This document shows, piece after piece, positions 51,173 to 56,034 of a stretch of 64,000 nucleotides of DNA. Position numbers and translations under genes: made by a program. The notes beneath the pieces were generated by a model, which searched no databases, was not told where the DNA came from, and was given only the letters and a program-made list of their open reading frames with translations. How positions within the stretch are numbered: the first letter of the stretch is position 1; each line of letters starts with the position of its first letter. The DNA is from Pengzhenrongella frigida (GTDB lineage Bacteria > Actinomycetota > Actinomycetes > Actinomycetales > Cellulomonadaceae), in assembly GCF_004168625.1 (NCBI RefSeq), contig NZ_SDWW01000012.1:1-64000 (forward strand), in the 5' to 3' direction.

Positions 51173-52384
51173 GTGAACGACACCCTCGATCTGCTCCTCG
51201 CCATCGGCCTGCCGACCCTCGCTGTCCTGGGTACGGCCGTCGCCCTCGTCGCCCGACGCCGGAGCTCCGGCCCGACGTTGCCGAGCGCGCCGGCTGACAC
51301 GGCGCCTGCGCCCACGGGCACGGCGCCCGCGCCCACGGGCACGACGCCTGGGTCCACGGCGACCCTGCCCGAGGACGTCCTGGCGCCTGACGCCGGCGTC
51401 GCCGAGGCGCCCCCGACGCCTGCCCCCACGCTCGAGGTGCCCGAACCCGTCGTCGGGCGCATGGCCCGGCTGCGGGGCCGGCTGGCCCGATCGGGCTCAC
51501 CCCTCGGTGCTCGTCTGCTCGCGGTCCTCTCGCGCGACCACCTCTCCGAGGACGACTGGGACGAGCTCGAGGAGACCTTGCTGCTCGCGGACGTCGGTGC
51601 GGGGCCGACCGGCGAGCTGATCGACGCGCTGCGCCGTCAGGTGCGGGTCGACGGCGTGCGGGAGCCGGCCGCCGTGCGCGCCCTGCTGCGCGAACAGCTC
51701 ATCACCCTCGTCGACCCGGCACTCGATCGGACCCTCGCCACCGCGCCGGGCCTCGGCGAGGACGGCCTGCACCGCCCCGCCGTCGTGCTCGTCGTGGGGG
51801 TCAACGGCACGGGCAAGACCACGACCGTCGGCAAGCTCGCGCGGGTCCTGGTGGCCGACGGGCGCACCGTCGTGCTCGGCGCGGCCGACACGTTCCGCGC
51901 CGCCGCCGCCGACCAGCTCGAGACCTGGGGGGCCCGGGTGGGGGTGCCCACCGTGCGCTCCGACCGCGACGGCGCCGACCCGGCCGCGGTCGCGTTCGAC
52001 GCCGTGCGCAGCGGCCGCGAGACCGGGGCCGACGTCGTGCTCGTCGACACCGCCGGTCGGCTCCAGAACAAGGCCGGCCTGATGGACGAGCTCGGCAAGA
52101 TCACGCGGGTCATCACGCGGGAGGCGCCGCTGACCGAGGTGCTGCTCGTGCTCGACGCCACCACGGGCCAGAACGGTCTGAACCAGGCGCGCGTGTTCGC
52201 CGAGGTCGCGGGGGTCACCGGGATCGTCCTGACCAAGCTCGACGGCACCGCCAAGGGCGGGATCGTCATCGCGGTCCAGCGCGAGCTGGGGGTCCCGGTC
52301 AAGCTCATCGGGCTCGGCGAGGGCCCCGACGACCTGGCCCCGTTCGACGCGGCCGACTTCGTCGACGGGCTGCTCGGGGACTGA
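51173..52384 (+). CDS. ftsY: Signal recognition particle receptor FtsY
   Basis: SRP receptor GTPase, 403 aa. N-terminal hydrophobic helix (residues ~5-27) for membrane anchoring, then an Ala/Pro/Thr-rich linker with a duplicated A-P-A-P-T-G-T unit, the NG domain with G1 G-V-N-G-T-G-K-T-T (~208-216), D-T-F-R-A-A-A (G2), D-T-A-G-R (G3) and T-K-L-D-G-T (G4). GTG start; CAGACT 6 nt upstream may be a leaderless -10. Partner of Ffh, encoded 3.7 kb downstream. Confidence 0.95.
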   Translation: MNDTLDLLLAIGLPTLAVLGTAVALVARRRSSGPTLPSAPADTAPAPTGTAPAPTGTTPGSTATLPEDVLAPDAGVAEAPPTPAPTLEVPEPVVGRMARLRGRLARSGSPLGARLLAVLSRDHLSEDDWDELEETLLLADVGAGPTGELIDALRRQVRVDGVREPAAVRALLREQLITLVDPALDRTLATAPGLGEDGLHRPAVVLVVGVNGTGKTTTVGKLARVLVADGRTVVLGAADTFRAAAADQLETWGARVGVPTVRSDRDGADPAAVAFDAVRSGRETGADVVLVDTAGRLQNKAGLMDELGKITRVITREAPLTEVLLVLDATTGQNGLNQARVFAEVAGVTGIVLTKLDGTAKGGIVIAVQRELGVPVKLIGLGEGPDDLAPFDAADFVDGLLGD

Positions 52385-52420
52385 CGCCTCACCCGGCAGA
52401 TTGCCCCGTACGGGTGCCGC

Positions 52421-52489
52421 GAAACGCAACGTTTACCTGGCTGCACTCCTTGTCACGCCCCGGTAACACCACGGGCACTGTCGGGTAAC
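52421..52489 (+). promoter_or_regulatory. GlnR-type operator array upstream of amtB
   Basis: Four half-sites GTCAC (52452), GTAAC (52463), GGCAC (52474) and GTAAC (52485) begin exactly 11 bp apart. A further pair GAAAC (52421) and TTTAC (52432), also 11 bp apart, lies upstream. This is the GTnAC/GaAAC-N6 pattern bound by GlnR in actinobacteria to activate ammonium uptake genes under nitrogen limitation. The amtB start is 62 bp downstream of the last half-site. Confidence 0.8.
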
Positions 52490-52550
52490 TCCTCTCCCAG
52501 AGAGTAATGACCGTCCGGCCGAGCGGCCGGCGAAGGGAGAGGCGATCCTC

Positions 52551-54199
<1,649 letters not shown>

Positions 54200-54201
54200 G
54201 C

Positions 54202-56034
54202 ATGACCGCATCGCGGGCGCCGGAAGGCGACACAGAGGGCCCCGCGGCGCCCGAGGTCCCGCACCCCCGCACGGGGGTGCGGGACCTTCGGGTCCAGCGC
54301 ATGGAGCTCGCCACCCGGCTGAGCGGGCCCGGGTCCGACGGCGTCGCTCGTCGCGCCGCCGTCGCCGAGCTCGTCACGACCCGGCTGACCGAGCTGTGGG
54401 AGACCGCGGTGGCGGACTTCCCGGCGGACGACGGCGGTACCTCGGGTGCCCCGATCACGGGGATCGCCCTGAGCGCCGTCGGGAGCATCGGGCGGGGCGA
54501 CCCAAGCCCGGCGAGCGACCTCGACCTGGTGCTCGTGCACGACGGCCGGGGTCACAGCCCGGCCCAGCTCGCGGCCCTGGCCGAGCGGCTCTGGTACCCG
54601 ATCTGGGACGCCGGGCTCGACCTCGACCACTCCGTGCGCTCGCTCGCCCAGTGCCGCCAGGTCGCCTCCAAGGACCTGCCTGCCGCCGTCGGACTGCTCG
54701 ATCTGCGGCCCGTGGCGGGCGACGCCGTCGTCGCGCACCGGGCGAAGTCGGCCCTGCTCAGCGACTGGCGCGGGGCGGCCCGCCGCCGGCTGCCCGAGCT
54801 GCTCGGGTCGACCCGCGAGCGCGCCGACCGGCACGGCGAGCTGGCCTACCTCATCGAGCCCGACCTGAAGGAGGCGCGCGGCGGGATTCGCGACGCCGTC
54901 GTCCTGTCCGCCCTGGCTGCGACCTGGCTCACCGACCGCCCGCACGGCGCGGTGGACGAGGCCCACGCCCACCTGCTCGACGTGCGCGACGCCGTCCAGG
55001 TCGTCACCCGCCGCCGCACGAACCGGCTGCTGCTCGCCGACCAGGACGAGGTCGCCGCGATGTGCGACTTCGACGATGCCGATGACCTGCTCGCGAGCCT
55101 CGCGGAGGCGGGCCGCATCGTCTCGTACGCGCTCGACACCACCGTGCGGCACGCCCGCCAGGCCCTGCAGCGCCCGACCGTGTCGCGCCGGCCCGTGCTC
55201 GTGCGCGGGCGCCGTCCGGCACCGAGCCTGCGCTCGGTCGGCCTCGGCCTGGTCGAGCACGACGGCGAGCTCGTGCTCGGCGTGGATGCGCGGCCCGCGA
55301 CCGACCCGCTGCTCTCGTTGCGCGCGGCGGCGACGGCGGCCCGCACCGGCCTCAACCTCTCTCCGGTCACGGTCGCGAGCCTGACCCTGACCCCGGCGAT
55401 CCCGGTGCCGTGGCCGCGGCCGGCCCGGGAGTCGTTGCTCCAGCTGCTGGGCACCGGCTCGGCCCAGATCCCGGTCTGGGAGGCGCTCGACCTCGCCGGC
55501 GTCGTGACGACCTGGATCCCCGAGTGGGCCGCCGTGCGGAACCGGCCCCAGCGGTCGGCGATCCACCGGCACACCGTGGACCGGCACCTGATCGAGACCG
55601 TCTCGCGGGTCACCCGGACGTACCAGAGCCACGAGGGCGCGGACGTGATGCTCGTGGCCGCGCTGCTGCATGACATCGGCAAACGGCCCGGCTCCCGGGA
55701 CCACTCCGTGGAGGGGGCCCGACTGGTCGAGCCGATCATGACGCGGATGGGCTTCGCTGCCGACCAGATCGCCGACGTCACCCGGCTGGTGCGTCACCAC
55801 CTCACGCTCGCCGACCTCGCCACGACCCGCGATCCGGAAGCCCCGGAGACGGTCGAGGCGTTGCTCGACGCCGTCGACCACCGGCCCGGGATGCTGCGGA
55901 TGCTGCGCGCCCTGACGGAGGCGGACGCCTCGGCCGCGGGGCCGACCGCCTGGACCGCGTGGCGGGCCCGGCTGATCGACGACCTGACCGGCAGAGCCGC
56001 GGCGACGCTGGCGGGTACGCTGAACCGTCCGTGA
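54202..56034 (+). CDS. glnD: PII nucleotidylyltransferase GlnD lacking ACT domains
   Basis: Modifies and demodifies GlnK. The nucleotidyltransferase motif [16 protein letters not shown] is at residues ~94-109 (Asp106, Asp108); the linker with [11 protein letters not shown] is typical of GlnD; the HD phosphohydrolase motif L-L-H-D-I-G-K lies near residue 490. At 610 aa it stops after the HD domain: the two C-terminal ACT domains that sense glutamine (family usually ~750-890 aa) are missing, and only 27 bp separate it from ffh. ATG 54202 lacks an RBS; ATG 54301, past a 15-bp hairpin, is an alternative start. Confidence 0.88.
54254..54287 (+). terminator. 15-bp hairpin in the glnD 5' end
   Basis: AGGTCCCGCACCCCC (54254-54268)-gcac-GGGGGTGCGGGACCT (54273-54287) is a perfect 15-bp stem. 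It lies 52 nt inside the annotated glnD frame, 55 nt after the glnK stop. It could attenuate transcription from amtB-glnK into glnD, or mark a later glnD start. Confidence 0.6.
56017..56022 (+). promoter_or_regulatory. Candidate -10 box for ffh
   Basis: TACGCT near the end of glnD, 39 nt before the ffh start, matches the TAnnnT form. No -35 was identified. Confidence 0.25.

Follow-up and report, generated by a model that had tools for sequence, protein, structure and literature searches.

The closest described counterpart of the locus analyzed here is the amtB operator of Streptomyces coelicolor. The available part of a review on GlnR, which also describes a GlnR-RNA polymerase complex, gives the consensus of the GlnR box as gTnAC-n6-GaAAC, repeated in the order a-b-a-b with 6-base spacers and a box length of 22 bp (PMC10704036). 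At S. coelicolor amtB, according to the sections available of the report that presents footprint and mutation data, the operator has three boxes, a3-b3, a1-b1, and a2-b2; across Streptomyces, half-sites a3, b3, a1, b1, and b2 are conserved and a2 is atypical (PMC5826061). In S. coelicolor, a2 is dispensable for binding and activation, a3-b3 is essential and is a site for which GlnR and PhoP compete, and the extra box speeds induction, with 300-fold versus 45-fold induction at 60 min (PMC5826061). For the Cellulomonas family, a literature search combining Cellulomonas, GlnR, and nitrogen returned no direct study, judged by title.

In the window, meaning the whole 64,000-nucleotide stretch of Pengzhenrongella frigida DNA analyzed here, six 5-base words occupy the gap between an ftsY-like gene and amtB (Table 1). 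The preliminary description of this DNA had named the downstream operon amtB-glnK-glnD; Pfam domains agree, which places nitrogen-assimilation genes behind the operator. The closest named match of the AmtB protein is from Cellulomonas telluris, with 75% identity. The genome has one match to the GlnR_1st domain (153 bits), in a 244-amino-acid protein that also carries a Trans_reg_C domain; 3 of 14 control genomes had GlnR_1st matches, none above the cut-off. The best PDB match of this protein is 8hih (E 8e-84), which we take to be a GlnR-RNA polymerase complex, and both 8hih and 8hig align over nearly its full length. With a GlnR gene in the genome, the operon downstream, and a layout that is kept in relatives, the earlier assignment of these words to GlnR is very probably correct.

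Table 1. Features at the amtB locus (coordinates count from the first base of the window)
Feature	Position	Strand	Remark
ftsY-like gene	ends 52384		SRP54 domains
Half-site a3, GAAAC	52421..52425	+	half-site at this offset in 40/40 anchored loci
Half-site b3, TTTAC	52432..52436	+	half-site at this offset in 40/40 anchored loci
Half-site a1, GTCAC	52452..52456	+	anchor, offset 0
Half-site b1, GTAAC	52463..52467	+	anchor, offset +11
Degenerate a2 position, GGCAC	52474..52478	+	half-site in 0/40 near loci and 0/17 Streptomyces loci
Half-site b2, GTAAC	52485..52489	+	half-site at this offset in 39/40 anchored loci
Predicted -10, GAGAGT (NANNNT)	52500..52505	+	10 bp after b2
Predicted transcription start	52512..52513	+	inferred from -10
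5'-UTR hairpin, CCGGCC-GAGC-GGCCGG	52515..52530	+	covarying stem, 52-sequence alignment
Shine-Dalgarno-like AGGGAGAGG	52534..52542	+	read from sequence
amtB, ammonium transporter	52551..53861	+	PF00909, E 3.7e-127
glnK, PII protein	53858..54199	+	PF00543, E 2.1e-29
glnD-like PII nucleotidyltransferase	54202..56034	+	PF08335, PF01966, PF03445

Spacing and conservation of the operator words

The words in front of amtB are direct 5-bp half-sites of the GTnAC/GAAAC type separated by 6-bp spacers, as in GlnR operators. Four GTnAC half-sites had been described at 52452, 52463, 52474, and 52485. All four positions are right, and they lie exactly 11 bp apart, as does the pair at 52421 and 52432, but the word at 52474 is GGCAC, which leaves three of four with the GTnAC form. 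The further suggestion of a longer phased array fails at the upstream pair, which reads GAAAC/TTTAC: b3 and a1 are 20 bp apart, no multiple of 11, and the six words therefore do not share one 11-bp lattice. The operator consists of two blocks whose first sites, a3 and a1, are 31 bp apart.

The four-site array is not a product of chance. The pattern GTNAC-n6-GTNAC-n6-GNNAC-n6-GTNAC, composed after viewing the sequence, matched once in the 64-kb window and in none of 100 dinucleotide shuffles, and a 69-bp pattern, likewise composed afterwards and searched within the window, gave the same result. A lone exact pair is at chance level in the window, with 1 found versus 0.82 expected and at least one in 57 of 100 shuffles. 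Across the whole genome, the amtB operator is the only mismatch-free match to GTNAC-n6-GNAAC-n17-GNAAC; allowing up to one mismatch gave 10 matches, versus 5 with a reversed-pattern control.

Exact GTNAC pairs at 11-bp steps occur at 48 places in the genome, compared to 5 for the reversed-pattern control, with gene content listed for those on contigs C38 and C101 only; one place (C110:555), which we take to resemble a piece of 16S rRNA, was set aside. Ahead of an SBP_bac_5 transporter gene on C38 (G000:C38:55319-55356, or L152:2320-2357), all four words of an array at 11-bp steps are exact GTNAC. It is the more regular of the two, so the amtB array is not "exceptionally regular" as first described. 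By eye, and at this single place, the C38 array reads GTGAC-n6-GTGAC-n6-GTTAC-n6-GTAAC, followed after 10 bp by the NANNNT hexamer CAGACT; it is likely a further GlnR or MtrA target, going by its sequence. Three exact GTNAC words at 11-bp steps also lie between GNAT acetyltransferase and DUF1989 genes (L153:1510-1536, or G000:C101:4909-4935). In front of the organism's own glnA (G000:C57), the order read by eye at this single place is TTAAC-n6-GAAAC-n6-TACAC-n6-TTAAC, then 10 bp and TAGCGT. At a second glutamine-synthetase-family gene (C71), GTCAC-n6-GAAAC stands directly before the likely start codon, unlike the placement at amtB.

Conservation was assessed in 130 amtB upstream regions, window included and one doubled genome dropped, drawn from 80 loci of named records (metagenome-assembled genomes included) and from genomes related to that of the window; what is counted throughout is loci rather than independent events, and some loci are near-identical (L007 and L125 share leaders). 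A near set of 55 loci, 50 from the window's family and its order and 5 named, was anchored on a1-b1 only (GTCAC-n6-GWAAC), with a half-site defined as [GT][TA]NA[CT]. This anchored 40 of the 55, window included, and left out 15. In the anchored loci, half-sites recur at -31 and -20 in every case and at +33 in all but one, so the pair at 52421/52432 belongs to the core. The +22 position, the third site of the window, is a half-site in 0/40, the window itself included under the strict definition. Other offsets carry half-sites in a mean of 0.58 of 40 loci, the highest being -18 (13/40, overlapping b3) and +53 (9/40). Thus, relatives keep the words at -31, -20, and +33 of the array first described, but not the one at +22, and four conserved half-sites across 52452-52489 were not found. 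In these alignments, the conserved unit is a3-b3, 15 bp, a1-b1, 17 bp, and b2, and the position that gives the array its continuous look, a2, is the one that lacks conservation; it is probably non-functional as a half-site.

At a permissive threshold of 8 bits, 105 of the 130 regions, all 55 near loci among them, matched an iterated matrix and 25 did not; the matrix was trained on the same amtB data, so its matches indicate spread and not proof. Other groups were compared with a looser a1-b1 anchor. All 17 Streptomyces loci, a set from which S. coelicolor is absent, were anchored and carried half-sites at -31, -20, and +33, with none at +22. Among Micrococcaceae-type loci, 11 of 12 were anchored, with -20 and +33 occupied in 11, -31 in 7, and +22 in none; the upstream half-site of these loci lies mostly at -42 (10 of 11 anchored), and four of them (L028, L035, L053, and L060) have just a loose match, GATAT, at -31. 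Microbacterium/Cryobacterium-type loci had half-sites at -31, -20, and +33 in 3/3 cases and at +22 in none, and none of four Streptosporangiales-type loci was anchored.

The locus thus shares with S. coelicolor the operon, the five conserved half-sites, a3-b3 at a fixed distance upstream of a1-b1, and an atypical a2 (PMC5826061). The upstream box reads TTCAY/GTAAC in the Streptomyces loci and mostly GAAAC/TTTAC in the near loci. With the general a-b-a-b box described in the review, the window has in common the 5-bp half-sites, 6-bp spacers, and 22-bp box, and differs by a further box upstream and an a2 position that is almost empty (PMC10704036). A contrast had been drawn between this array and known GlnR sites; four half-sites at 11-bp steps are, however, the two pairs already given in the accessible part of that review (PMC10704036), and the upstream pair is no novelty either, as an extra a3-b3 box at amtB has been published (PMC5826061, available sections). 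On sequence grounds, the window very probably holds the known three-box amtB GlnR operator, now seen in a further family of actinobacteria; it is genuine and highly conserved, yet unexceptional.

Predicted activation of amtB and competing readings

Under the a1-b1-only anchor, columns +49 (A) and +53 (T) of the predicted -10 element hold 1.8 bits each. On the matrix alignment, which itself takes in the -10 columns, 53 of the 55 near loci have both letters, whereas none of 23 other offsets exceeds 9 of 55; all 17 Streptomyces loci have both as well. A purine is found at +61 (52513), within the predicted transcription start, in 48 of 55 near loci. In PhoB-type pho promoters, a direct-repeat box replaces the -35 element, with 10 bp between the end of the last repeat and the -10, as after b2 here; the regulator and the sequence differ.

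The most probable reading, to which we assign a probability of roughly 0.87, is a three-box operator through which GlnR activates amtB under nitrogen limitation, with b2 replacing the -35 element. What was observed here is the sequence, its conserved geometry, the GlnR gene, and the like geometry at glnA. By analogy with S. coelicolor and the GlnR literature, which supply binding, loading order, activation, and nitrogen dependence, nitrogen limitation would bring GlnR, an OmpR-type regulator, to a3-b3 and a1-b1. These two boxes would most likely be filled first and then help a further GlnR onto b2, past the nearly empty a2 position. Because b2 ends 10 bp before the conserved -10, GlnR at b2 could substitute for a -35 element and keep RNA polymerase at the -10, and a3-b3 would add affinity and induction speed. 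Because 31 bp, or roughly three helical turns, separate a3-b3 from a1-b1 downstream, the two boxes should face about the same side of the DNA: with a helix of 10.5 bp per turn, simple arithmetic puts offsets -31, -20, 0, +11, and +33 within about 0.15 turn of one face.

The same repeats could also, or even mainly, serve MtrA, which, either by itself or as a competitor of GlnR, would keep amtB-glnK-glnD repressed when the medium is rich. The genome codes for an MtrA-like protein of the OmpR family (best PDB match 2gwr, E 4.5e-104), and Streptomyces MtrA has sites at nitrogen genes, amtB among them, where it competes with GlnR and represses; the role described in the available part of that report is an overlap with GlnR control and no replacement of it (PMC9045223). 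The constant distance from b2 to the -10 also suits an activator site and speaks against repression by MtrA. We regard this reading as unlikely.

A similar degree of doubt attaches to sharing of a3-b3 with a phosphate regulator of the PhoP/RegX3 type, which would block GlnR there under phosphate limitation. In its favor, many loci show GTTTAC or GTTCAC when the G just before b3 is included, close to the PhoP unit, GTTCACC; the genome codes for a RegX3-like regulator of the OmpR family (2oqr, E 6.4e-99); and the competitive GlnR/PhoP binding described for S. coelicolor concerns this same box. The spacer within a3-b3 (52426-52431 in the window) is conserved too, at 0.9 to 1.2 bits from -24 to -21, although mere shared ancestry may account for this. 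With its flanks, the spacer reads AAACG-CAA-CGTTT in the window, perhaps a second regulator's mark.

Very improbable is a continuous cooperative array of four working half-sites at 52452-52489 that is particular to the window's organism: the spacing of exactly 11 bp speaks for it, as does GGCAC, which departs from GTnAC in just one of four fixed letters, but the third position is a half-site in none of the anchored near loci, and a2 is dispensable in S. coelicolor (PMC5826061, available sections).

A candidate leader hairpin in the amtB mRNA

Downstream of the GlnR operator, the predicted transcript begins just before a short hairpin, which is followed by the Shine-Dalgarno-like sequence (Table 1). 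In an alignment of 52 distinct leaders, from which two duplicates and L129 were left out, the six stem pairs form in 97.8% of cells, compared to 93.5% when the 3' letters are shuffled (0 of 500 shuffles as high), and three of the pairs show changes in both partners (3 of 500 as high); these shuffles ignore relatedness, which alone can exceed them. One of five measures, the number of further pair types, was not above shuffles (7 versus 6.7; 308 of 500 as high). Slid versions of the stem pair in 24.5 to 42.0% of cells. At one stem pair, the 52 leaders have G-C in 21, A-U in 16, G-U in 13, and A-A in 2, with A-C never seen, which points to RNA.

A DNA operator in the 5'-UTR was disfavored as an explanation of the stem, with G-U departures in 24 cells against 2 of the A-C type (C-A, columns 9/28); a cruder count in free register gave 15 GT/TG versus 5 CA/AC. 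In the same free-register count, leaders averaged 5.38 of 6 Watson-Crick pairs, compared to 4.57 after shuffling and 4.13 to 4.49 across five further stretches of 28 bases, the shuffle control being weak alone because shuffles of this G+C-rich stretch reach at least 5 of 6 pairs in 54%. Some folds join an outer stem to the Shine-Dalgarno region; it is not claimed here, its upstream side lying partly before the predicted start. The window's leader folds with an unremarkable energy (z -0.62).

No known family was assigned to the hairpin in an Rfam 15 search of 52380-52620 (no match at E up to 1), and in a literature search, the titles and abstract beginnings of the papers listed showed no amtB leader hairpin. 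A model of the leader found amtB as the best place in its own genome (E 4.8e-6; next, 0.005); three weaker matches there resemble coding sequence by eye. The model matched at the start of amtB in 47 of 79 genomes, made up of 42 of the 49 from the window's family and 5 of the 30 remaining genomes. Just three of these 47 (G029, G034, and G077) are independent matches, since the others are in the training set or identical to its members. Under the stricter filters, at E up to 0.05, the leader was not recovered at amtB in training genomes G007, G009, G032, G033, and G048. Some match at E up to 0.05 occurs in 67 of the 79 genomes, so weak matches elsewhere mean little. Three Streptomyces leaders that were inspected do not have a hairpin of the window's type.

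A covarying amtB leader hairpin is possibly new. We hold, tentatively and at somewhat less than even odds, that a conserved six-pair hairpin, at most about three bases from the predicted 5' end and immediately ahead of the ribosome-binding site, is maintained as RNA and forms a second layer of control, an undescribed amtB-specific leader element of the Cellulomonadaceae and a few neighboring families.

Meaning for nitrogen control in the family

The leader hairpin is a small addition to a known operator. If it is real, its simplest role may be to cap the 5' end and so protect a quickly induced mRNA from decay, or to switch ribosome access. For the operator itself, the window's family and three Microbacterium/Cryobacterium-type loci repeat the three-box spacing footprinted in Streptomyces, always with nothing at a2, and the empty a2 across groups supports its published dispensability. 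The fixed geometry, in which 10 bp separate b2 from the -10, may aid in finding GlnR-activated promoters by sequence.
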